Positions 1 to 25,801 of a DNA stretch of 36,111 nucleotides are shown here, one piece after another. Source of the DNA: a virus. The stretch is from the IMG/VR virus record IMGVR_UViG_3300004369_000056, positions 1 to 36,111 of that record. One strand, 5' to 3'. Under the pieces are notes generated by a model. The model searched no databases. It was given only the letters and a program-made list of their open reading frames with translations, and was not told the origin of the DNA. How positions within the stretch are numbered: position 1 is the first letter of the stretch; every line of letters begins with the position of its first letter. Both the position numbers and the translations under genes were made by a program.

Positions 1-1
1 G

Positions 2-133
2 CACGAGGCTGACCCCGAACCGATTGCCATAATTTTCGGGGGATTTGCCAACATGCGGAATTGGCGTGTGATTTTCGCAAGGCATTATGCACGCAAAACA
101 GGGGTGAAAATTCGGTGTATGATTGGTGGTTGA
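2..133 (+). CDS. Possible C-terminal part of a small hypothetical protein, cut by the window edge
   Basis: An open frame enters from the left edge and stops with TGA at 131-133, giving about 43 residues (it contains GGFANMRNWRVIFARHYARK). I do not recognise a family. The window ends in AT and begins with G, so if the two ends were joined this frame would start with ATG exactly at the junction (see findings). An internal ATG at 53 could also start a shorter product. There is no supporting neighbour upstream, so this may be a chance open frame. Confidence 0.35.
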   Translation, partial: HEADPEPIAIIFGGFANMRNWRVIFARHYARKTGVKIRCMIGG

Positions 134-740
134 CAAATGGTTCGGCATCGGCTTATTGTGATTGGCATCGGAATCGGCAACGGTAACCGCTGAGGGTAGC
201 GTCTCATCGGTAGGGTCACCACAACCGAACGAAGCACTGAGCAATACGAATCGGTGCACCACACAGCGACACCCCATGGCTATGGTCATGGGTTATGGAT
301 GGCTGTTGGAGTCACAGGGCAACCTATTCTCCCTCAATGAAATGAGGGACGGCGTAAAGTGACACGAACAAGGGTTACCTTGTTCAAATTGGTTGGTAGC
401 ATGGACAATCTGTAGATTGTCGTTGACACTGAAAATTGCTGTGAAAGTAAAGGCTTAGACGCAATTCATCGTAGATGGTTATGATGGATGGGGCAGATTT
501 ACGGAGTAACTGGCATGAAGTTGGCGACAGTCGGAATTACTTGCACTAACATGAAATGTTATTCGGAGCGACAATAACTCACGAATATCACGGGAGGTTC
601 GCAGGCAGTGAAAATCCTTGCGATGATGGACGCATTATGCTAGAGTCATCGTGGGGATTAGCGAGGTTCAATTCCTTGCCTTTCCGCTATGTCTTACGAC
701 ATAAACATAATCACCTATTACAACTGGAGGTTGTAACATT
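134..740 (+). other. Gene-poor, hairpin-rich leader region upstream of the early genes
   Basis: About 600 nt with no convincing protein gene. Short candidates exist: a TTG frame at 162-362; ATG 515-577 (20 aa) with CGGAG 8 nt upstream; and 556-744, which ends in an ATGA overlap with the next gene but lacks a ribosome site. None has family support. The region contains perfect inverted repeats: CCCATG/CATGGG (273-292), TCCCTCA/TGAGGGA (330-349), GAACAAGG/CCTTGTTC (366-385), GACAATC/GATTGTC (404-421), TAACAT/ATGTTA (547-561) and TATGTC/GACATA (688-703). TTGACA occurs at 130-135 and 423-428 and could be the -35 of an early promoter, but the -10 matches are weak. It could be an untranslated leader, a small RNA locus or an origin. 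Confidence 0.5.
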
Positions 741-743
741 ATG
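718..743 (+). promoter_or_regulatory. Ribosome site in a hairpin loop, gene at 741
   Basis: A perfect 7-bp stem TTACAAC (718-724) / GTTGTAA (730-736) encloses the five-base loop TGGAG (725-729). This is the Shine-Dalgarno core. The ATG follows at 741. The stem should hold the ribosome site exposed in the loop. Same layout as at 2479, 3435, 4185 and 7038, with different arms. Confidence 0.6.
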
Positions 744-1061
744 AAACTTGAAGCGATATCGGTTACACAGACACCATTTAAGAATGGTGTCCGCAAGAAT
801 GTCGGAAATTGGAGTTTCGTGGACAATGTTGACGGGAACTTTAGTTACCGTCAAGTGTTGCATCATGGAACTCTCATGGGAGAGTTTTACACGGACCGTC
901 TGAATTTGAATTGGGGCTTTGCCCCGTTGTCAACTGGATGGGGTTCGGCATCGGACCAGCAGGGCATGAATAAAATCCTGAAGGATTTCGGTTGGACATT
1001 CCGTAGGAATGGTGGAACGCCTCGCTATGAGCATGTTTCGGGGAGAGTGTTCCCCAACTGA
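741..1061 (+). CDS. Hypothetical early protein (106 aa)
   Basis: Complete 106-residue frame starting at ATG 741 behind a strong GGAGG displayed in a hairpin loop. I do not recognise the family. It is rich in aromatic residues and glycine (GNWSFVDNVDGNFSYRQVLHHG, then a segment around LNWGFAPLSTGWGSASDQQG), has no cysteine pairs and no membrane segment, and looks like a small soluble, mostly beta protein. It is the first convincing gene of the rightward early cluster. It is followed by a 152-nt spacer of hairpins before the AAA+ ATPase. The last codons also fold: GGGGA/TCCCC at 1040-1055, and the stop codon begins a GAACCC/GGGTTC stem at 1060-1076. Confidence 0.75.
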   Translation: MKLEAISVTQTPFKNGVRKNVGNWSFVDNVDGNFSYRQVLHHGTLMGEFYTDRLNLNWGFAPLSTGWGSASDQQGMNKILKDFGWTFRRNGGTPRYEHVSGRVFPN

Positions 1062-1213
1062 ACCCTGAAGGGGTTCGGGACCAAATAGCAACACTTACAG
1101 TGTTGGGCAGTGCAATTCTGTCATGGTCCGCTATGGTGGTCATAACCAATGGGGTTATGACATTAGATGTCCGTGAACGGACAGCCATTATTACATAATG
1201 GGAGGATAACATT
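1060..1213 (+). promoter_or_regulatory. Hairpin train between the first early gene and the AAA+ ATPase gene
   Basis: The spacer is nearly tiled with perfect stems: GAACCC/GGGTTC (1060-1076), CAACACT/AGTGTTG with loop TAC (1089-1105), GTCATAACC/GGTTATGAC (1139-1161), TGTCCG/CGGACA with loop TGAA (1168-1183) and CATTAT/ATAATG with loop TAC (1186-1200). GGACCA (1078-1083) and TGGTCC (1124-1129) can close an outer stem around the second one. No U-tract follows, so these are not ordinary terminators. RNA-level control of the next gene is the likeliest role. Confidence 0.6.
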
Positions 1214-1216
1214 ATG
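1186..1216 (+). promoter_or_regulatory. Two mutually exclusive hairpins around a ribosome site
   Basis: ATAATG at 1195-1200 can pair backward with CATTAT at 1186-1191 (loop TAC). It can also pair forward with a second CATTAT at 1210-1215, which contains the first two bases of the ATG at 1214. The forward pairing puts the Shine-Dalgarno GGGAGG in the loop but buries the start codon; the backward pairing frees both. This is the geometry of a translational switch. The function is inferred. Confidence 0.45.
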
Positions 1217-2470
1217 GCTACAGCATCACAAACAGTCTTGTCTGTTGACAAGCAAACTAAACGAGTCCAACTTGCCGATGGGCATTGGCGACCTATTAAC
1301 AACCTTTCCAAGGTTGAACTAATCAAGGTTGGCTCGTTTCTCAATGTGTCGTGGGGTGGAACCCCGATGCACAAAACAGTGTCGGAGATTCTTGCCATCG
1401 TAGATGGTGCTATGGGAGTCACTGAACCTACGGTTGTTGAGCCGATTGTTCGGACTACGGAGCCTGTCCCTGCTAAAGCAGTTGTTCCAACTGGTTCATC
1501 GTTGGATGCTGTGATTGCAACTATGGTTGCAAACATTATGGCAACAATCCCTGTGGGGATTGACGAGGACAAGGTTCGTAACATCGTTTCCGATGTTGTT
1601 GACCCAATCGCCATGGACAATGCTGTGGCATTGTCACGACTCAACGAAAAAATTGAGGCGATGCAACCGAAGGTTACCCAAATCATCGTCAAGGACCGCC
1701 CAGCAGTCACCCTAAAGGGTGTACAACATCAGGCTTTCGGTGACATCATGATGTCAATTTCGGCTCGTTGCAACACCTTCCTTGTGGGTCCTGCTGGTAC
1801 TGGCAAGACCACGATGGTGTCACAAGTTGCTGATGCTTTGGGTTTAGGTTTTCATGCTGAAAACTTAACTGCCGCAACAACGGAATATGCCCTAAAGGGC
1901 TTCAAGGATGCCAATAGCAATTATGTCCCTACGAAACTTCGTGAGTTCTTTCAGAACGGTGGGGTTTACTTGTTGGATGAGATTGACAATGCGAATCCGA
2001 ATGTTCTCGGAGTTCTTAACTCCGCTTTGAGCAACGGCTTTATGGCTTTCCCTGACGGGATGGTTGCGAAGCATCCTGACTTCATCGCAGTTGCCGCAGG
2101 AAATACCTACGGTAATGGTGCTACTGCCGAGTATGTGGGTCGTAACCCGATTGACGGTGCAACCTTGGACCGCTTTGCGTTCTTCAATGTGGACATTGAT
2201 GAACTGGTTGAGGATGCCATGTTGGCTGGTTATGGTTTGCCTACGGCAACCGCTACGGTTTGGTTGGAGGCTGTACGGCGTAGCCGAATCAATGTTGCCA
2301 CTAGCGGACTCCGTGTTATCGTGTCACCACGAGCCACGGCGAACGGTGCAGGGTTGCTTGCACAGGGCATGGACATGGACAAGGTGTACCAAGCCACGGT
2401 GTTGAAAGGTGCAAAGCAGGACCAAGTTGAGAAAATTCGTCAAGGTGTAACCTTGTCGGTATCGGCTTAA
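1214..2470 (+). CDS. MoxR-type AAA+ ATPase (CobS/GvpN/NorQ-like)
   Basis: A 418-residue protein with a helical, low-complexity N-terminal part (about 1-165) and one AAA+ domain (about 170-400). Visible motifs are Walker A GPAGTGKT (192-199), Walker B VYLLDEID (251-258), sensor 1 AAGNT (294-298) and GATLDRF (315-321), which carries the likely arginine finger. This belongs to the MoxR branch; phage relatives are often annotated CobS-like. MoxR ATPases remodel partner complexes, usually together with a VWA-domain protein, and the next gene encodes a VWA-like protein. Metal chelation is therefore not implied; a remodelling role on host or phage complexes is more likely. ATG 1214 follows GGGAGG at 1200-1205. 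The coding sequence is unusually rich in perfect hairpins, with four at 1515-1635. Confidence 0.9.
   Translation: MATASQTVLSVDKQTKRVQLADGHWRPINNLSKVELIKVGSFLNVSWGGTPMHKTVSEILAIVDGAMGVTEPTVVEPIVRTTEPVPAKAVVPTGSSLDAVIATMVANIMATIPVGIDEDKVRNIVSDVVDPIAMDNAVALSRLNEKIEAMQPKVTQIIVKDRPAVTLKGVQHQAFGDIMMSISARCNTFLVGPAGTGKTTMVSQVADALGLGFHAENLTAATTEYALKGFKDANSNYVPTKLREFFQNGGVYLLDEIDNANPNVLGVLNSALSNGFMAFPDGMVAKHPDFIAVAAGNTYGNGATAEYVGRNPIDGATLDRFAFFNVDIDELVEDAMLAGYGLPTATATVWLEAVRRSRINVATSGLRVIVSPRATANGAGLLAQGMDMDKVYQATVLKGAKQDQVEKIRQGVTLSVSA
1515..1635 (+). repeat. Run of four perfect 7-8 bp inverted repeats inside the ATPase gene
   Basis: TTGCAAC/GTTGCAA (1515-1532), CAATCCC/GGGATTG (1545-1562), AACATCG/CGATGTT (1580-1597) and GACAATGC/GCATTGTC (1616-1635). 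Each has a four-base loop and they lie 30-36 nt apart. They are in coding sequence, so synonymous codon choice must contribute. With random sequence such a stem-loop is expected about once per 16 kb for a given loop length. Confidence 0.8.
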
Positions 2471-2478
2471 CTACTAGA

Positions 2479-2499
2479 TTCAACTGGAGGTTGAACATG
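2479..2499 (+). promoter_or_regulatory. Ribosome site in a hairpin loop, gene at 2497
   Basis: TTCAAC (2479-2484) / GTTGAA (2490-2495) with loop TGGAG (2485-2489), one base before ATG 2497. This spacing decides the start: the in-frame TTG at 2491 lies inside the stem, directly against the Shine-Dalgarno sequence, and is not a plausible start. Confidence 0.6.
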
Positions 2500-3345
2500 G
2501 AAAGCAACACGAAAATTATGAACCTTAACGGTTCCAATGTCCATGTGGACTATTTTGACTCGTTCGGCGAGATGCTCAACTATGTTGAGAAGAATCCGAA
2601 TGTTGGCTCATCCGATAAGGATGGGACCGATGGCTGGGATGGGATGCGTAACTTCGCCGAGGCGAAGGAACTTGCCCGTCACGGTTGGCATGATGTTCGT
2701 CCACAAGTTGAGGAACTCCTCAACCAAATGTCGGATGTGATTGCGGACCGTTTGGAAATTGCCCCAAGTATGACTTGGAATGTCGCTGGTGGGGTTGTGG
2801 ATGTCGGTCGTTACTGTGGTAACGAACCGATGTGCATGTTGGATTTCCCTATGGAGCCTGCCGAACGGATGGGCAAGGTTGTCAAGTTGTTCATTGACTA
2901 CGGTGCATCATCGGGGTTCAGTGGCGACTTCATTATGAAACGGGGCATCGTGTTGCTCGCTTTGGTTGACACTTTACAGAAACTCGGTGTTTCTGTAGAA
3001 ATCTTTGGCGAGACTGCGATTACCTCTAAAGGTAATACGACACATACCACGGTGACGAAGTTGCATGACCCAACCGATAGGCTGGACATTGACGAACTGA
3101 TGTTCACTTTGGCTCATCCTGCGATGCTCCGCCGTATGGCGTTCGCTGTCCGTGAAATGTCAACTTGTCGCAGGGAAATTGATGCTGTACCTAACGGTGG
3201 TTATGGCAGAACGATTCACACGGTTTATGCTCCTACGGTTGGTGCAGATATTCGGATGGAGCGTTTGGAATCCCGTGCAACGATGTGCATGGAGAATCCT
3301 GTGGAATGGGTTATGCAAACCATCACTGGTTTGAACCTAATCTAG
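2497..3345 (+). CDS. VWA-like partner of the MoxR ATPase (DUF7192/CobT-like)
   Basis: A 282-residue protein starting at ATG 2497, since the TTG at 2491 is too close to GGAGG. The middle part has the pattern of phage proteins I know as DUF7192: the VGRYCGNEPMCMLDF segment (about 103-117), a hydrophobic strand ending in IDYGASSGFS (133-142), a long helix (IMKRGIVLLALVDTLQKLG) and a VSVEIFG strand. This is a VWA-type Rossmann order. The metal site would be degenerate: D134 and the S138/S139 region replace the classic DxSxS. It lies directly downstream of the ATPase, as MoxR and VWA genes commonly do, so the two probably form one complex. The family call is from memory of sequence patterns; the fold is inferred. 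Confidence 0.65.
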   Translation: MESNTKIMNLNGSNVHVDYFDSFGEMLNYVEKNPNVGSSDKDGTDGWDGMRNFAEAKELARHGWHDVRPQVEELLNQMSDVIADRLEIAPSMTWNVAGGVVDVGRYCGNEPMCMLDFPMEPAERMGKVVKLFIDYGASSGFSGDFIMKRGIVLLALVDTLQKLGVSVEIFGETAITSKGNTTHTTVTKLHDPTDRLDIDELMFTLAHPAMLRRMAFAVREMSTCRREIDAVPNGGYGRTIHTVYAPTVGADIRMERLESRATMCMENPVEWVMQTITGLNLI

Positions 3346-3363
3346 TGAGTGACCTTCGGTGTG

Positions 3364-3456
3364 ACAGGGTGGTGATATTATCCTCCGCCACCTTGTTACA
3401 CCTTTGGTGTAAGATGTCATTATAAACAACAACACAACCTTGGAGGTTGAGAAATG
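3364..3456 (+). promoter_or_regulatory. Hairpin train and looped ribosome site before the gene at 3454
   Basis: CAGGGTGG (3365-3372) pairs with CCACCTTG (3388-3395) through one G-U pair; its 15-nt loop contains TATCCTCC (3379-3386), an anti-Shine-Dalgarno sequence. TTACACC/GGTGTAA with loop TTT follows at 3396-3412. CAACC (3435-3439) / GGTTG (3445-3449) encloses loop TTGGA, so the GGAGG is partly in the loop and partly in the stem, five bases before ATG 3454. Confidence 0.55.
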
Positions 3457-3906
3457 AAAAAGCAATTAGCACGGACAATGGTTATGTGGGTCCTGTATGG
3501 GTTCACATTATGGTTTGGTTTTGTACGGTTCGGTTTACCGACAGCGTTCACACCAATGTTTATGACCTTTATTGGCACCTCGGTGTTTTTGGGGTTTGCA
3601 TTATGGGAAACATTCATCTTTATAGGGATGAATGACCTTAGGAAAGACGCTCGTGATGCGGAGTTGGAGGAATGGGGTCGTGAGTTTTTCGCCCCGTTGC
3701 TGACAACCCATTCGGGTTTGTCGTTGACTGCTGACAACGGATTTCAGTTTGAAATCTTTTTCAATCAGGCGATTAACATGTGGCAAGCGGAACTGTGGGA
3801 CATGACTGTTGTCCCTGCTGGTATTTGTGACCGTGAGGTGTTTGCTTACCGTAGTGAAGCCCTTGATTGGTATGTCATCCGAAATGCTCATATCAACACC
3901 TTCTAG
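3454..3906 (+). CDS. Membrane protein with two N-terminal helices (150 aa)
   Basis: ATG 3454 lies 8 nt after GGAGG. Residues about 6-27 (ARTMVMWVLYGFTLWFGFV) and 34-58 (TPMFMTFIGTSVFLGFALWE) are hydrophobic and form two likely membrane helices joined by a short loop. They are followed by a charged linker (MNDLRKDARDAELEEWGREF) and a soluble C-terminal domain of about 80 residues. I do not recognise the family. The position in the early cluster argues against a holin, since lysis genes lie in the leftward unit. A role at the host membrane, such as exclusion or takeover, is possible but only a guess. Confidence 0.75.
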   Translation: MKKQLARTMVMWVLYGFTLWFGFVRFGLPTAFTPMFMTFIGTSVFLGFALWETFIFIGMNDLRKDARDAELEEWGREFFAPLLTTHSGLSLTADNGFQFEIFFNQAINMWQAELWDMTVVPAGICDREVFAYRSEALDWYVIRNAHINTF

Positions 3907-3913
3907 GTGGAGG

Positions 3914-3964
3914 ATGTCTGACACACTGTTCTATATGCTGATTAGACCGATTGGAGGTGAATAA
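3914..3964 (+). CDS. Possible 16-residue leader peptide
   Basis: ATG 3914 opens MSDTLFYMLIRPIGGE and stops at TAA 3962-3964, which overlaps the ATG of the next gene by one base. This coupling is the main support. The GGAGG directly abuts the ATG, which is poor spacing, so translation is uncertain. The frame also covers the Shine-Dalgarno sequence of the next gene. Confidence 0.3.
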   Translation: MSDTLFYMLIRPIGGE

Positions 3965-4122
3965 TGCTTACGAACCTGAACACTTGGACGACAAGCGAAT
4001 TGACGGACCAACTGCTAAAGAATCGCAACGACATTAAAGTTGTTGAAATTGAAAACGCACAGATTGTTGAAATTCTAGAATCTAGAATTAAAGAAATCAA
4101 AGGCGTGATGTACAACGGTTAG
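3964..4122 (+). CDS. Small hypothetical protein (52 aa)
   Basis: ATG 3964 follows GGAGGTG with good spacing; TAG at 4120-4122. The product (MLTNLNTWTTSELTDQLLKN...) has an N-terminal helix and a Glu/Ile/Lys-rich C-terminal helix around VVEIENAQIVEILESRIKEIK with heptad-like spacing, which suggests a short coiled coil and oligomer formation. No known family. It lies between the membrane protein and a hairpin train leading to the DUF3846-like gene. Confidence 0.65.
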   Translation: MLTNLNTWTTSELTDQLLKNRNDIKVVEIENAQIVEILESRIKEIKGVMYNG

Positions 4123-4128
4123 GATGAA

Positions 4129-4206
4129 ATCCCCTTCGGGGGATACACGAATATGTTTTCGTGCTGATGATTCCAGTCCGAATCATACACTTGGAGGTGT
4201 ATCATG
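4129..4206 (+). promoter_or_regulatory. Train of four contiguous hairpins ending in a looped ribosome site
   Basis: Four perfect stems follow almost without gaps: ATCCCC/GGGGAT with a TTCG tetraloop (4129-4144), CACGAA/TTCGTG (4146-4163), ATGATTC/GAATCAT (4167-4186) and ATACAC/GTGTAT (4185-4202). The last one has loop TTGGAG, the Shine-Dalgarno sequence, one base before ATG 4204. Stems three and four share two bases, so they compete slightly. The first is not followed by a U-tract. Confidence 0.65.
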
Positions 4207-4821
4207 GGTGATAAACCCGTTTCAGGAGCGTTGTTGCCAAGTGGCATTAACGCAGAGATAGAACCAGTAATGGTTGGTGAATATACTCATATTCAATCGT
4301 TGGTTGGTGGTCCATTTGATTGTGTCACAACCAAGGTTGGTGGGAACATAATCGTTGGTTATGTTCACGATGAGGGATTGCTACTTGGTTTGGAACAAAA
4401 CTGGTTCGCTAGTGCATTGTTCTCACGGAACCTTGTGGGTCCTTGCGTTATCGTTAGCGGTGAATCTGCTGACGGTGAATATGATGGTGATAACCATGAC
4501 CTATCGGATGATTTTTTCCGTTTCTTAACCACGAAGTTCACAACACATGTTGCTGAAACCTACAACGAAGCCACGAGTGCTACGATTGCGTTTGAGTTGG
4601 CTAAGGCGTTGGGTATTTGCACTGACGAGGAGTTGGATGCACTTGTGGACAAGATGGCTGAAGAAATGAACACTGGCATAAAGAATGGTGCTTTGCAGGA
4701 AGTGGAAGCCTTGATGGAAACGGTGCAAGAACGCATCCAAGATTTCGCCAAGATGGCTCACGACATGCAAGGTGCGGAACTTGTTGGCGAAGTTGAACAG
4801 TTCCTAAAGGAAAATTCATAA
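4204..4821 (+). CDS. DUF3846-like early protein (205 aa)
   Basis: The N-terminal half (about 18-110: VGGPFDCV, VGGNIIVGYVHDEGLLLGLEQNWFASALFSRNLVGPCVIV) follows the pattern of DUF3846, a small alpha/beta domain of unknown function common in phages and plasmids. The C-terminal half is an acidic helical region (about 125-205; ELDALVDKMAEEMNTG, then VEALMETVQERIQDF) that is likely a coiled coil. ATG 4204 has its ribosome site in a hairpin loop. The next gene starts in a TAATG overlap at 4821, so the two are translationally coupled. Perfect stems TGAATAT/ATATTCA (4278-4295) and GAACATAA/TTATGTTC (4344-4366) lie near the start of the coding sequence. Confidence 0.75.
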   Translation: MGDKPVSGALLPSGINAEIEPVMVGEYTHIQSLVGGPFDCVTTKVGGNIIVGYVHDEGLLLGLEQNWFASALFSRNLVGPCVIVSGESADGEYDGDNHDLSDDFFRFLTTKFTTHVAETYNEATSATIAFELAKALGICTDEELDALVDKMAEEMNTGIKNGALQEVEALMETVQERIQDFAKMAHDMQGAELVGEVEQFLKENS

Positions 4822-5012
4822 TGTCAGATAATCCGTCAACAGTGGTTGCCCCGAAAGGGGCAGCCACACGGCGAACCGAGTTGGTTCCGTCAGGTAAATA
4901 TGTGTGCGAAAAATGTGCTAATGTCATTCAAGTGTTAGTGCGTATGTCAGAACTTCCAGTGTGTACAAAACATGCTGGCACAAGGGTCACTATGAAGAAA
5001 GCAGGTAAGTAA
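4821..5012 (+). CDS. Small zinc-ribbon-like protein (63 aa)
   Basis: Starts in a TAATG overlap with the preceding gene. The C-terminal half carries CEKC (about 29-32) and a second pair from VCTKH (about 47-51), so it can bind one zinc as a treble-clef or ribbon-like knuckle. It is basic at the C-terminus (VTMKKAGK). Function unknown. It is coupled to the DUF3846-like gene upstream and to a second zinc-ribbon gene 2 nt downstream. Confidence 0.7.
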   Translation: MSDNPSTVVAPKGAATRRTELVPSGKYVCEKCANVIQVLVRMSELPVCTKHAGTRVTMKKAGK

Positions 5013-7016: not shown

Positions 7017-7037
7017 ACTAATGTAATACCAAACCAA

Positions 7038-7057
7038 CAAGCAGGAGGCTTGAAATG
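7038..7057 (+). promoter_or_regulatory. Ribosome site in a hairpin loop, gene at 7055
   Basis: CAAGC (7038-7042) / GCTTG (7048-7052) with loop AGGAG (7043-7047), two bases before ATG 7055. Same layout as the other looped ribosome sites, with different arm sequences. Confidence 0.55.
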
Positions 7058-7510: not shown

Positions 7511-8587
7511 ATGGCTCCTGATTACACGGAGCGATGGGCAAAGATTGGGCGGGGAGAAATTATCTCCCCGCCTGATTCTTTATCTACGCCAAAATATAAC
7601 TATTATGCGCCATTGGTTAAAGCCGCCGATGATTATGTTCATTGGGCGCAAACACCAAACGAGCGTGTCTATTTAGGTTTCGCAGACATTGACGAACAGA
7701 TGCGTGGTATCGCCCCAAGCGAACTGTGCATGATTAACGGCTACTCGCATAGCGGTAAAACGCTTGCGTTGCTACAAATCCTGAGTGCGAACCGCAACAA
7801 GCGTGTCGTATATTTCTGTCCCGATGAGCCACGAACATTAACGCTGATTAAGTTGGCGTGTGTTGTCCATGGTGTTGATGCGAACCAGTTAGAGCAACAG
7901 GTCGCAGACAATGACCGTGACGCAATCAACCTGCTTAAAGCAACAGCGACAGAACATTTCCCGAACCTAGCGGTCTTTGACCAAACGGTTTCGTTGTTGG
8001 ATATGGAACGCTCGCTTGCTGAGGTGTCTGATGTTATGGGTGAACCACAACTAATCGTTGTGGACTATTTGGAACTCATAACAGGTGCAGGTGAAGATGT
8101 TCCGTCCAAGGCTAACGCAATCAAAGCGTTCGGTAAACGCCATAATAAACCTTTGCTGGTGTTGCATCAGTCGTCACGCACCGCTGGTGCTGACGGACGA
8201 AAAATGACTATCAGTTCAGGTGCATATGGTGGTGAGCAACAAGCCACACACATCATTGGTGTACGCCGTAAACGGTTTGAAATTGAAGGTCATATTCGTG
8301 ACTTGCAAGAGAAACTGGAACGGGCATCTAACACTGAAAAGATTATGGAAAAGATTGAATCTTTGCAGTATGAGTTGCGTATCCACATGGATACTTTGAC
8401 CTTGAACCTTGTGAAGTGTAAGCGTCCTGCATCCGCATTGTTAGATGACATGGACTTTACGATTGAATACGGCACAGGTCGTTTGCACAGGTTGGACACT
8501 GGTGTGTTACCGTGGAAAGAACAACGACCTAGCGTGGACAATCCACTAGAACAATTAACTATCGCTGAAGCATTGGAGGACTGGTGA
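7511..8587 (+). CDS. DnaB-like replicative helicase (RecA-fold, SF4)
   Basis: A 358-residue protein. RecA-type ATPase with Walker A GYSHSGKT (77-84), a strand ending in CPDEP (103-107) that carries the acidic catalytic residue, Walker B LIVVDYLELI (181-190), and LLVLHQSSRTAG (about 216-227), matching the motif 3 / sensor Gln region of DnaB. A long charged helix follows (about 265-300). It lacks the large N-terminal domain of bacterial DnaB, as do other short phage helicases. It should unwind DNA at the fork together with the AEP primase encoded next, whose GTG start overlaps its stop codon. Confidence 0.88.
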   Translation: MAPDYTERWAKIGRGEIISPPDSLSTPKYNYYAPLVKAADDYVHWAQTPNERVYLGFADIDEQMRGIAPSELCMINGYSHSGKTLALLQILSANRNKRVVYFCPDEPRTLTLIKLACVVHGVDANQLEQQVADNDRDAINLLKATATEHFPNLAVFDQTVSLLDMERSLAEVSDVMGEPQLIVVDYLELITGAGEDVPSKANAIKAFGKRHNKPLLVLHQSSRTAGADGRKMTISSGAYGGEQQATHIIGVRRKRFEIEGHIRDLQEKLERASNTEKIMEKIESLQYELRIHMDTLTLNLVKCKRPASALLDDMDFTIEYGTGRLHRLDTGVLPWKEQRPSVDNPLEQLTIAEALEDW

Positions 8588-9501
8588 TAACTGACATACG
8601 AGATTTCATAACCTTGTTTCGTGGCAGGGGTGATGTCTATGGACATAATGAAGGTAAATGTGTTAAAGAACCATTGACCGAACTTGTGTTCCAACAACAT
8701 CTTGACGGGTCTGCACCTATCGGTGTGTACCCTTTGGTCCCACACATTGACAACCATTATGTTGCATGGGGTTGCGTTGACTATGACACATCCGATGCAC
8801 AGGAACATGCGGTTCGTCTGCACGATGCCCTGTTGGAAGCAGGCGTTGTGTCATGGATAGAGAAATCTCGTTCCAAAGGATTTCATGTTTGGGTATTTGC
8901 CGAGCATGCTGTCCTCGCTGAAGATATGCGTAACATGTTGATGGTCGCATCACAGGTTGCGGAAACACCAACCACAGAAGTTAACCCTAAGCAGATTACT
9001 TTGAAAGCAGGTCAATATGGCAACTATGTACGGCTACCGTATCCGAATGTTGGTGATTACCAAACTGACAAGCAACGCATCTTTCATGCGAAAGATGTTG
9101 CGTGGGGCAGTTTCACCAATCCGTATAGTTTCAACGACTTCGTTGAGAGTGCTATGTCTCTCAGGACTCCTCAGGAAACCATCCAGCGCATCGCATCCAT
9201 GTATCAGCCACCCAAGCAAACGGCAGTCGTAAACAATGATTATGTTTATGATGCAACTCTTGATGAGGCTATGCAAATACTTAGCCCGTTGGGTAAAGTC
9301 ATTTGGCGTGACGGACCGTTAGCAGGAAAAGACCGTTCATCCACACTGGCGAAACTAGGTCACGAAACTGTTCGCAGTGGACTGAACCCTAGTCAGACGA
9401 AGATTGTGTTGATGACAGCGGATAAGCGTTGGGGCAAATATCATTTGCGTCACGATGGTGAAATGGAAATAGACAAACTCGTGGTCAGGGTACATTCATA
9501 A
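8584..9501 (+). CDS. AEP-family primase (TOTE type)
   Basis: GTG 8584 overlaps the helicase stop (GTGA), a typical coupled start. The 305-residue product carries the archaeo-eukaryotic primase motifs: CVDYD with D66 and D68 (metal-binding DxD), SKGFHVWVF with H101 (the sxH motif), and YGNYVRLPY downstream (about 139-147), in the order seen in TOTE-conflict-system primases. A C-terminal helical domain (about 225-305; GKVIWRDGPLAGKDRSSTLA) resembles PriCT-type domains that touch the template or helicase. It probably primes replication with the adjacent helicase. No DNA polymerase gene is visible, so elongation presumably uses the host enzyme. Confidence 0.82.
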   Translation: MITDIRDFITLFRGRGDVYGHNEGKCVKEPLTELVFQQHLDGSAPIGVYPLVPHIDNHYVAWGCVDYDTSDAQEHAVRLHDALLEAGVVSWIEKSRSKGFHVWVFAEHAVLAEDMRNMLMVASQVAETPTTEVNPKQITLKAGQYGNYVRLPYPNVGDYQTDKQRIFHAKDVAWGSFTNPYSFNDFVESAMSLRTPQETIQRIASMYQPPKQTAVVNNDYVYDATLDEAMQILSPLGKVIWRDGPLAGKDRSSTLAKLGHETVRSGLNPSQTKIVLMTADKRWGKYHLRHDGEMEIDKLVVRVHS

Positions 9502-10052
9502 TGTCATTTGATTACAAACTCAGTTTTATTCAGGGCGGTCATTGGGCAGAAAAAGTTGCTCAACGGTTGCGTGATTCAGGTGTTGAATGTTATGCACCTG
9601 AAATACAAATAGCGCAAAACGCAGAAGAACGAGACTATATGACAAAACACGAAAAAGATATTGTGTTTAACTGGACTGACTCCACCATAGAAGTCAAATC
9701 ATCCACACGGAACTTTACCGACTTCGTGGAAGCATACCCATACGATTCCCTGTTCGTAGATACCGTGTCGGGATATGAAAGCAAAGCGATGAAGCCGATG
9801 GCTTACGCCATCATCTCCCAACAAGAACAAGGCATCGTGTGTATTCCACCAAGCAGTTACTCAACATGGACAAAAGTACGAGCATACGACAAACACAGGG
9901 AAATTTGGGAAACCTTTTACAGCGCACCAAAAGAAGCCTTAATTTCATTCAGTGCTTTAGTTGACTATCTGAAAGAACACGAAAACACTAACCTGATGTC
10001 CCGTGTTTTGGACACCGTTCATCCAATACCAGTAAACATTGAGGATTTATAA
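9501..10052 (+). CDS. PD-(D/E)XK endonuclease-like protein (183 aa)
   Basis: Starts in a TAATG overlap with the primase. The catalytic core is visible as WTDSTIEVKSS (about 57-67): an acidic residue, then E-V-K on the next strand, followed by DSLFVDTVSGYESK. This is the fold of restriction-type and Holliday-junction-type nucleases. The rest (KPMAYAIISQQEQGIVCIPPS) fits the core beta sheet. The substrate cannot be told; DNA recombination or repair is likely from the neighbours. The base composition of the coding strand changes inside this gene, near 9600, from G/T-rich to A/C-rich. Confidence 0.7.
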   Translation: MSFDYKLSFIQGGHWAEKVAQRLRDSGVECYAPEIQIAQNAEERDYMTKHEKDIVFNWTDSTIEVKSSTRNFTDFVEAYPYDSLFVDTVSGYESKAMKPMAYAIISQQEQGIVCIPPSSYSTWTKVRAYDKHREIWETFYSAPKEALISFSALVDYLKEHENTNLMSRVLDTVHPIPVNIEDL

Positions 10053-10636
10053 TGACAACCATACTTGCTATTCAAGGTGACGATTATTGTGCAATCGGTT
10101 CCGATTCACAATGGACAGATGAATACAACCGTGTCGGCAAAATGAACCAACCCAAAGTAGTCACCGTAGGACGATACCTAATAGGTGTAGCAGGTGATAC
10201 CCGTGGAGCAAATGTTATCCAACATGCGTTCACACCCCCCGTACTTCCACCCAAACTGGTTGGCGCACGACTGGTCAAGTTCATCGTGTCACAGTTCGTC
10301 CCCGCCTATAAAGAATGTTTGGAATCACATGGCGCAGGCAGACCACAATATGATGACCAGCCAGCACAATCAGCAAACGAGATACTCGTTTGCGCTAATG
10401 GTGTCATATTTCAAATAGATACCGATTATGGAACCGAAACCGATACATGCAACCTGTATGCCATCGGTTCAGGCGCACACTACGGCTTAGGAGCATTACA
10501 GGCGTACACATCAGGCAAGCGTGTCTTACAGGCAAATGCTAAACAGGTGTTGCTGAAATCATTAACGGTAGCCGTAAAGTTTGATAACGGCAGCGGCTCA
10601 CCGTTCCACACCTTTATACAGACAGCGAAACCATAA
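10052..10636 (+). CDS. Ntn-hydrolase protease, HslV / proteasome beta-like
   Basis: A 194-residue protein beginning MTTILAI, so removal of Met would expose the N-terminal Thr nucleophile, as in HslV (which starts TTI). Counting the Met as 1, the set is T2, D18 (AIGSDSQ), K35 (NQPKVVTVGRYLIGVAGDTRGA) and S140 in AIGSG (137-141). These fall at almost the same spacing as T1, D17, K33 and the GSG serine of HslV. No HslU-like unfoldase lies beside it. It may be a phage protease for host or capsid proteins, or another Ntn hydrolase. Start TAATG with the upstream gene; stop TAATG with rusA. Confidence 0.78.
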   Translation: MTTILAIQGDDYCAIGSDSQWTDEYNRVGKMNQPKVVTVGRYLIGVAGDTRGANVIQHAFTPPVLPPKLVGARLVKFIVSQFVPAYKECLESHGAGRPQYDDQPAQSANEILVCANGVIFQIDTDYGTETDTCNLYAIGSGAHYGLGALQAYTSGKRVLQANAKQVLLKSLTVAVKFDNGSGSPFHTFIQTAKP

Positions 10637-10995
10637 TGGCAGCGAAGCGTAAAAACAAAAAGAAACCATACACGGTTTCCTTTCCAATTAAACCTATCCC
10701 AAAAGGGCGACCAAGAATGACTCGTTATGGTCGTGTTTTTACGCCTAAAACCACATTGGAAGCAGAAGCATACATCGCACAAATATATGACGGTCCACAA
10801 TATGAAGGCACAGTAAAAGTTGAATGTGTATTCACACCAACAGGAACAACCGTCACTCTAACCCCCATTGATGGTGAGCAATCAAAACTACGAGGCGACC
10901 TAGACAACTATGTGAAACTGTTAATGGATGGTTTGAACGGTGTTGCATGGTTGGATGACAAACAGGTAACTGTTATTCAGGCGGAAAAACAGTGA
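10636..10995 (+). CDS. rusA: RusA-like Holliday junction resolvase
   Basis: A 119-residue protein with the RusA pattern: FPIKPIPKGRPRMTRYG at the N-terminus (about 15-31) and the metal-binding core GDLDNYVKLLMDGLNGVAWLDD (about 85-106), with the conserved acidic residues in D-x-D-N and D-D. It resolves branched DNA formed in replication or recombination, often before packaging. It starts in a TAATG overlap and its stop overlaps the GTG of the next gene. The length is close to that of typical RusA. Confidence 0.9.
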   Translation: MAAKRKNKKKPYTVSFPIKPIPKGRPRMTRYGRVFTPKTTLEAEAYIAQIYDGPQYEGTVKVECVFTPTGTTVTLTPIDGEQSKLRGDLDNYVKLLMDGLNGVAWLDDKQVTVIQAEKQ

Positions 10996-11468
10996 GCAAA
11001 AACCAATCAGATTATGACATCCCCGCCCGCAAATTTGACTTCCACACCGACCTAAAGTTCGGCAAAAAAGGTGAAAAACTTGTAGAAGAATTCCTTGATG
11101 CGATGTCCGATGGTGCGTTTGAAGTCAAAACAGACCGCTACCGTAACGGGCGCATGGTCCTAGAGATGACTCACAACCCACGCAAGAAGGTTGATGAGGA
11201 AGGTAAACCTTTATGGAAGCCCTCAGGGCTTGCCATAACGAAAGCAAAATGGTGGGTATATGTTTATACCTTGGATGGCTCCTTTGTAATCGTCAGCACA
11301 GACAGAATCAAACGATACCTAAAGGTAAACAAGGAGCGATTTAATCCCAAAAAATATCATGGCTTCGCTATGGCATCCAGCAACCCATCCAAGGGATACT
11401 TGCTACAGCCCGAAGATGTGATGGACCTGATGATTAACACTGCATATGATGAAGTACGAACCGACTAG
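10992..11468 (+). CDS. PD-(D/E)XK nuclease-like protein (158 aa)
   Basis: GTG 10992 overlaps the rusA stop (GTGA). The sequence FGKKGEKLVEEFL (about 23-35), then GAFEVKTDRYRNGRMVLEM (about 41-59), has the helix-strand pattern and E-V-K of the PD-(D/E)XK fold. AITKAKWWVYVYTLDGSFVIVSTDRIKRYL follows, as in small phage nucleases that recognise DNA ends or junctions. This is the third nuclease of this fold in the early cluster besides RusA. The substrate is unknown. It overlaps the sigma-like gene by 23 nt. Confidence 0.72.
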   Translation: MSKNQSDYDIPARKFDFHTDLKFGKKGEKLVEEFLDAMSDGAFEVKTDRYRNGRMVLEMTHNPRKKVDEEGKPLWKPSGLAITKAKWWVYVYTLDGSFVIVSTDRIKRYLKVNKERFNPKKYHGFAMASSNPSKGYLLQPEDVMDLMINTAYDEVRTD

Positions 11469-24819: not shown

Positions 24820-24847
24820 AATGGTGGGGGATTTCTCCCCCACCATT
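24820..24847 (-). terminator. Strong 12-bp hairpin after the capsid gene
   Basis: A perfect 12-bp GC-rich stem (24820-24831 with 24836-24847), whose loop reads GAAA on the minus strand, lies 21 nt downstream of the major capsid stop codon. The bases after the stem are TTCCATATT, a weak U-tract. Such hairpins commonly end or attenuate capsid messages and protect their 3' ends. Confidence 0.65.
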
Positions 24848-24868: not shown

Positions 24869-25801
24869 CTAAGCGGTCTTAGCGGTCAACTTTCCTTGCT
24901 TCGCTGCGTTACGGCAGGTCAAGTTACCGTAGCACATGATGAGTGCATAACGGGCATCCAAGTTCTCTGGGCGGACAAACTCTGTCTGCGAGAACCACTT
25001 GCCTGAGTGACCAACCAAGGTCAGGTACTTGCTGTTCAAGAAGAACATTACACCAGCGGTGCAACCCTCGTCATAAACAACAGGAGCAGCCTTGAACAAC
25101 AGGTTTTGGAAACCAGCATCCGCTGTCTTGGTGTCTGTGTAACGAAGTTGTGGCTGAAGTAGTGCCTCATACTTTTCAAACAATGTTTGGGTGGTGAGAA
25201 CCATGTCAGGATGGTCGTTACCAACAGAAACGCTGTTGTATGCTGTTGCCATCTTGGCGAGCGACAACGCTTCCGAGGTGTTCTCCTCGTATGAACGCCA
25301 GTATGCCTCTGTTGAACGGTCAATACCGCCAACGGTTCCTGATGCTTCAACGATATTTCCAAGACCGTTCCAGTCCTTGCCGCTGTTGCCAGTTCCGTCT
25401 GCGTAGAACATCGTGTTGAAACCTTCACGCATTGACTCTTCAGCCTGCATGATTTTGGCTTCCAACAAGTTGATGATTTCTTGTTCACCGTTGTTCTTGG
25501 CTTCTTCAATACCGCTGATTGCGATGGATGCAGCATACTGCTTCCAGTCGTATTCAGCAGCCGTGATACCACTTTGCGCTGTAAGCGAAATGGTGTCATA
25601 ACCTGAGTACGATGCTACAGTTGAGTTCTGACCGTAGATGAGTGGTTCAACAATCTTTGTACCGCCGTTAAGCATGCGGATACGACCCTTATCCTGAAGG
25701 AAGTAGGTCAACGGACGAGCCGTAAAGATGTTGTCCGTGAGTTGGTCACGGTAGTTTGCGAGCGTTGTTGACAACAACGCATCAAAGTTTGGGTTTGACA
25801 T
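24869..25801 (-). CDS. Major capsid protein (HK97 fold)
   Basis: A 310-residue protein. FDALLSTTLANYRDQLTDNIFTARPLTYFLQDKG is the N-terminal arm and first helix. YDTISLTAQSGITAAEYDWKQYA, then NNGEQEIINLLEAKIMQAEESMREGFNTMFYADGTG, forms the E-loop to spine-helix region. GIDRSTEAYWRS (about 158-169) is a motif common to capsid proteins of this type. The A-domain part runs to VYDEGCTAGVMFFLNSKYLTLVGH. It assembles the icosahedral head around the scaffold encoded upstream. AAGGAG lies 6 nt before ATG 25801. Portal, scaffold and capsid are in the canonical order. Confidence 0.92.
   Translation of the reverse strand: MSNPNFDALLSTTLANYRDQLTDNIFTARPLTYFLQDKGRIRMLNGGTKIVEPLIYGQNSTVASYSGYDTISLTAQSGITAAEYDWKQYAASIAISGIEEAKNNGEQEIINLLEAKIMQAEESMREGFNTMFYADGTGNSGKDWNGLGNIVEASGTVGGIDRSTEAYWRSYEENTSEALSLAKMATAYNSVSVGNDHPDMVLTTQTLFEKYEALLQPQLRYTDTKTADAGFQNLLFKAAPVVYDEGCTAGVMFFLNSKYLTLVGHSGKWFSQTEFVRPENLDARYALIMCYGNLTCRNAAKQGKLTAKTA

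Follow-up and report, generated by a model that had tools for sequence, protein, structure and literature searches.

According to a survey of prokaryotic genomes (PMC4060949), inverted repeats show a small but significant excess within genes, for which messenger RNA (mRNA) structure (Katz and Burge) and copying (Ladoukakis and Eyre-Walker) are cited there as the established alternatives. Perfect hairpins are also known to be maintained by template switching (PMC8794818), and the mitochondrial genomes of Nematomorpha carry coding palindromes of up to 284 base pairs (bp) (PMC6649704). Here we analyse a 36,111-nucleotide (nt) stretch of viral DNA, positions 1-36111 of IMG/VR virus record IMGVR_UViG_3300004369_000056 (hereafter the window), in which short, tightly looped, perfect hairpins occur in large excess, together with the phage clade to which it belongs. 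As in the prokaryotic genes, short perfect inverted repeats are more frequent within the clade's genes than expected; yet that survey describes a small but significant excess, whereas in the clade it is 5-20x, is limited to tight loops and goes with suppressed stem substitution. With template-switch hairpins it shares perfect DNA-level stems and multibase compensatory change, but its short-term pattern is conservation of the stem and not arm-to-arm propagation. In Nematomorpha, too, functional genes contain numerous perfect inverted repeats, but those are long palindromes of animal mitochondria, while the stems here measure 6-12 bp and belong to a double-stranded DNA (dsDNA) phage. Our literature searches of open-licence papers found no earlier account of such a dsDNA phage, in agreement with an earlier note on the window, written from its letters alone, which knew of none.

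That note had listed 14 perfect stems of at least 7 bp in the first 5 kb, and all 14 coordinates indeed correspond to perfect stems of 7-8 bp. The excess it reported is real, although the number was an undercount, with 21 such stems with loops of 3-4 nt found by systematic counting in 1-5000. Some dimensions also change: the loops at 404-421 and 2707-2724 are 2 nt long, with 8-bp stems (or 4 nt, if the stem is counted as 7 bp); of two described as 5-6 bp, the stem at 2652-2667 measures 7 bp around a 2-nt loop, and 2809-2824 lies within a longer stem of 7 bp, 2808-2825. Over the whole window we counted 83 perfect tight hairpins (stem of at least 7 bp, loop of 2-8 nt, innermost loop counted) against about 15 expected, spread across both gene arms and intergenic DNA. 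Compared with dinucleotide shuffles, stems of at least 7 bp are enriched ~9x at loop 2, ~8x at loops 3-5 and 1.9x at loops 6-8, and ~1x both at loops 0-1 and at loops 16-40, so that the excess is confined to loops of about 2-8 nt, with its maximum at 4. Shuffles that preserve proteins and codon usage leave the excess standing: the genes of the first 5 kb hold 16 hairpins against 0.9 expected (maximum 3 in 100 shuffles), and all window genes 39 against 4.4 (shuffle maximum 12). Preserving dinucleotides as well raises these expectations to 3.0 and 9.9, respectively, under a null that is conservative since it mixes poorly in short genes. An Rfam search of the window gave no matches.

Relatives were gathered with three proteins, namely the ATPase, the helicase and the capsid protein, the last yielding at least 597 in IMG/VR. 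Among related IMG/VR loci, 114 of 143 lie above z = 4, with a total ratio of 5.9, compared with 1 of 85 random viral contigs and a total ratio of 1.15. The hairpin-rich relatives share homologous capsid and DnaB/archaeo-eukaryotic primase (AEP) genes, and the trait is kept across a wide clade with a guanine-cytosine (GC) content of 40-55%. The carriers form a common, uncultivated clade of tailed phages with hairpins 5-20x above chance; the most extreme, L178, has 74 hairpins in 17.5 kb. Across the clade, density is highest (~20x) over the ATPase gene and the DNA that precedes it, 5-7 kb from the helicase on its upstream side, which is why the hairpins were first noticed in 1-5000. T7, lambda, Mx8 and a TM7 phage show 0.4-1.5x, and T4 2.2x (loops 3-5). 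Because the effect is several-fold stronger than the mild bacterial excess and extends over many relatives and GC contents, its causes become separable.

Megablast of the window against known phages returned no match. A distant relative is Podovirus ct52p938 (MW202803, Manatee Spring), which has a homologous major capsid protein, DUF7192, DnaB and AEP primase, and whose tight-hairpin excess of 4.5-6x is like that of the clade; it differs from the window in a GC content of 56%, some longer-loop excess and two tRNA genes, and its annotation does not mention hairpins. In one relative found through the capsid locus (L112), stems with loops of 9-30 nt are doubled too (64 vs 29.7), which is not so in the rest of the clade. 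A link to the pair of ATPase and DUF7192 genes was rejected, since UPIE, Tunturi_4 and Kudefre, phages outside the clade that have this pair, reach only 0.8-1.4x. The sole genome match to the capsid, 57% identical, is contig L194 (PAYF01000019) in a Euryarchaeota metagenome-assembled genome, with a hairpin excess of 3.1x against 2.0x for other contigs of the same assembly, the one cellular assembly sampled. It is probably a phage contig binned with an archaeon, and we rejected the match as too weak a ground for naming a host.

How the stems evolve was followed among relatives, with orthology taken from blastn alignments and deduplication rules that vary between analyses. In pairs of at least 93% identity, tight stems are substituted at 0.36-0.38 of the flank rate and one-mismatch stems at 0.79-0.91, while loops change at about the flank rate. 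In ancestral tight hairpins of close pairs, loops may even outpace the flanking DNA (0.031 vs 0.025 per site). At third codon positions stem substitution is 0.53 vs 0.95 in long-loop stems, which together with the codon-preserving shuffles confirms the suggestion that most hairpins lie in coding sequence and bend codon choice; in non-coding DNA it is 0.26, with long-loop stems there likewise lowered (0.57). Polarised by outgroups, the stem/flank rate is 0.39 vs 1.17 in long-loop controls, and gains per loop length are 1.95x control. Suppressed loss and raised gain together predict an excess of 5.8x (5.3x at 86-93% identity), where 5-6x is observed. Such a pattern is expected from a weak selective advantage or from biased repair of equivalent effect. 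Over long divergence the stems hold their position through compensatory changes, 29-47% of them transversions in the divergence classes with adequate counts. Stem 366-385, for example, reads GAACAAGG.., GAACATCG.. and GAACAATG.. among relatives, stem 7548-7572 reads GGCGGGGAGA, GACGGGGCGA and GGAGAGGCGA, and the stem at the ATPase start appears in the same place as CTTGTC/GACAAG, CTTATC/GATAAG, CAAGTC/GACTTG or TTGTATC/GATACAA, with the encoded residues changing. We favour, with moderate confidence, a weak, genome-wide, selection-like pressure for short stem-loops that either DNA strand can form when single-stranded.

The strongest competing explanation, which we nonetheless consider unlikely, is quasi-palindrome correction, in which, during replication, the nascent strand turns back on itself and uses one arm as template, making imperfect inverted repeats perfect, so that the excess would be mutational. 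It fits the tight loops, the Watson-Crick-only stems and the dependence on DNA hairpin stability, and it predicts the observed preference for perfect over one-mismatch stems. Template switching is moreover documented to create and maintain hairpins (PMC8794818), and PMC4060949 cites the same process as proposed (Ladoukakis and Eyre-Walker) for the small prokaryotic coding excess. Unbiased copying, however, predicts that arm-to-arm propagation should be about as frequent as restoration, and the 640 ancestral tight stems compared at 93-99.9% identity showed 59 losses and 1 compensated stem; non-coding stems similarly gave 4 compensated pairs vs 41 single changes. This near absence of compensated stems at short distance disfavours the unbiased form. 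One-arm gains with several substitutions are barely enriched (7 vs 5.0 with 2 changes, 4 vs 1.1 with 3), although a handful carrying 3-4 changes speaks for copying, and the suppression of stem loss is beyond the reach of mutational gain alone. Of the earlier proposal of a copying mechanism that perfects near-palindromes, a copying or repair variant that always restores the old sequence is compatible with the data.

Selection for folded mRNA, which had also been put forward, would act through stability, translation control or nuclease protection, and we regard it as less probable still. A general mRNA-structure excess in bacterial coding regions (Katz and Burge, as cited in PMC4060949) lends it plausibility. 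If mRNA folding were selected, sense-strand G.U pairs should be tolerated. G.U comparisons that mixed strands or relied on shuffled nulls were set aside in favour of a sense-oriented design in which long-loop stems serve as controls, and in its census the odds ratios of G.U vs A.C one-mismatch stems are 1.09, 0.97 and 0.93 for stems of 7, 8 and 9 bp, while perfect stems exceed the controls 3.9-11x. At equilibrium there is thus no G.U preference. Nor is the sense strand better folded than the antisense relative to codon shuffles, the excess local folding energy being -0.70 and -0.65 kcal/mol per 40 nt, respectively. The loops are equally strand-symmetric. The closing pair 5'-C...G-3' has a frequency of 0.36-0.41 vs a background of 0.20 (~2x), GNA triloops are enriched 1.8x and their reverse complement TNC 1.6x, and C-G-closed GNNA/TNNC tetraloops 4.2x. 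GNA and GNNA are stable DNA loop motifs, and sense-strand TNC/TNNC loops are enriched as much as these, which speaks against folded mRNA. Stem GC is 0.51 vs 0.42 in chance hairpins. The frequent transversions among the compensatory changes also argue against folded mRNA. Taken together, the hairpins look DNA-like: Watson-Crick-only, strand-symmetric and with DNA-stable loops. What remains in favour of mRNA is a weak recent G.U asymmetry, given below, and a small set of Shine-Dalgarno hairpins, TGGAG next to ATG lying in a hairpin loop (stem of at least 6 bp) 8x oftener than TGGAG elsewhere (8.6% vs 1.1%).

An artefact of coding, composition, sequencing or assembly has a negligible probability: codon periodicity does raise the number of in-phase direct repeats, here as in all phage sets tested, but neither codon nor codon-plus-dinucleotide shuffles reproduce the hairpin excess, off-phase direct repeats (50 vs 52.7) and mirror repeats (14 vs 9.3, barely enriched) show nothing comparable, and the excess, which random viral contigs lack, recurs in more than 100 loci drawn from many metagenomes.

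Under selection on DNA folding, the favoured stems would be Watson-Crick perfect, with loops of 2-6 nt that are preferably C-G-closed GNA/GNNA, and the pressure would have a scaled strength of about 2; the force would be selection rather than restoring-biased repair. More weakly, gene content suggests that the hairpins may act in replication, at a single-stranded stage for which the DnaB-like helicase and AEP primase would be responsible, for example as priming or loading sites or by keeping displaced strands folded and protected. A role in single-strand stages, one of the causes suggested earlier, accordingly fits best as regards the stems, loops and suppressed loss, while the stage itself is surmised from gene content. 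Several points weigh against this reading. Repair biased toward restoring perfect stems would look identical; the single-stranded stage is a candidate predicted from the genes, and no hairpin-reading protein was identified among them. AEP-primase phages outside the clade are without the trait (DSL-LC04 1.7x, JeffCo 1.0x, HTVC027P 1.6x), so that this primase type alone is insufficient and was rejected as the cause. Related sequences are not independent, and simple significance figures therefore overstate the evidence. Finally, recent sense-strand changes run from perfect to G.U rather than to A.C by 178 to 106 (controls 192 to 185), in both oppositely oriented arms, a ratio of 1.6-1.9 in tight hairpins vs ~1.0 in long-loop controls, which hints at a transcript-linked component. 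We read this asymmetry as mutational because it is gone at equilibrium, which does not fully explain it.

Several left-arm genes are preceded, just 5' of the start codon, by a perfect hairpin whose loop contains their Shine-Dalgarno sequence (TGGAG or GGAGG) and whose stem sequence differs from gene to gene, both in the window (Table 1) and in the relative L178 (positions 2071, 2395, 4214, 5915 and 6255). These hairpins may be a separate, RNA-level translation feature.

Table 1. Hairpins and genes of the window. "New" marks those of the 21 stems with loops of 3-4 nt that the earlier list lacked; "SD" stands for Shine-Dalgarno.
Position	Strand	Feature	Stem, loop	Context
330-349		perfect hairpin	7 bp, 6 nt	non-coding, 330-421
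366-385		perfect hairpin	8 bp, 4 nt	non-coding, 330-421
404-421		perfect hairpin	8 bp, 2 nt	non-coding, 330-421
718-736	+	hairpin TTACAAC(tggag)GTTGTAA		loop holds SD of gene 741-1061
770-791		hairpin, new	9 bp, 4 nt	within gene 741-1061
869-886		hairpin, new
1089-1105		hairpin		intergenic cluster 1089-1201
1139-1161		hairpin	9 bp, 5 nt	intergenic cluster 1089-1201
1168-1183		hairpin		intergenic cluster 1089-1201
1185-1201		hairpin, new		intergenic cluster 1089-1201
1190-1216		SD hairpin site
1214-2470	+	AAA ATPase gene (PHROG 249)	6 bp	stem CTTGTC..GACAAG near start
1300-1316, 1515-1532, 1545-1562, 1580-1597, 1616-1635, 1741-1756, 1848-1864, 2008-2024, 2184-2199		hairpins		ATPase gene
2484-2500		SD hairpin site
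2497-3345	+	DUF7192 gene
2575-2589, 2652-2667, 2707-2724, 2764-2778, 2808-2825, 3019-3036		hairpins		DUF7192 gene
2975-2997		hairpin	9 bp, 5 nt	DUF7192 gene
3316-3333		hairpin, new		DUF7192 gene
3396-3412		hairpin	7 bp, 3 nt	intergenic
3740-3756		hairpin, new
4071-4089		hairpin, new	8 bp, 3 nt	group 4071-4295
4167-4186, 4278-4295		hairpins		group 4071-4295
4186-4203 (approximate)	+	hairpin ATACAC(ttggag)GTGTAT		loop holds SD of gene 4204-4821
7030-7054		SD hairpin site
7511-9501		candidate replication module		helicase and AEP primase
7511-8587	+	DnaB-like helicase gene
7548-7572		hairpin	10 bp, 5 nt	within helicase gene
8584-9501	+	archaeo-eukaryotic primase gene		AEP-TOTE/LigD PrimPol type
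10636-10995	+	RusA-like Holliday-junction resolvase gene
24820-24847		hairpin	12 bp, 4 nt	directly downstream of major capsid gene, ahead of next gene
24869-25801	-	major capsid gene

The window also encodes terminase, portal, capsid and a PD-(D/E)XK nuclease; none of the window proteins scanned was recognised as a member of a DNA polymerase family. At 10052-10636, in the replication arm, lies a relative of the HslV/proteasome peptidase family. A 158-aa protein (10992-11468) is conserved in 58 left-arm loci, with 64-71% identity among those aligned, and carries a FEVKTDRYRNG motif that is PD-(D/E)XK-like by eye; its structure model is poor (predicted local distance difference test, pLDDT, 63), and even the top PDB matches are weak, with E values of 0.04 or worse. 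The model of gene 7055 is of low confidence (predicted template-modelling score, pTM, 0.39), and neither model yields a hairpin-binding protein.

We offer a broader conclusion tentatively: the clade may maintain short DNA hairpins genome-wide that can be read on either strand. Selection acting on codon choice, and even on amino acids, would have fitted them into protein-coding genes, where they would form a structural layer required at a single-stranded stage in the life cycle of the phage DNA. If DNA-level selection is indeed the cause, the phage genes would be overlain by a dense structural code, a sign that phages of a common kind pass through a single-stranded step so far unrecognised.

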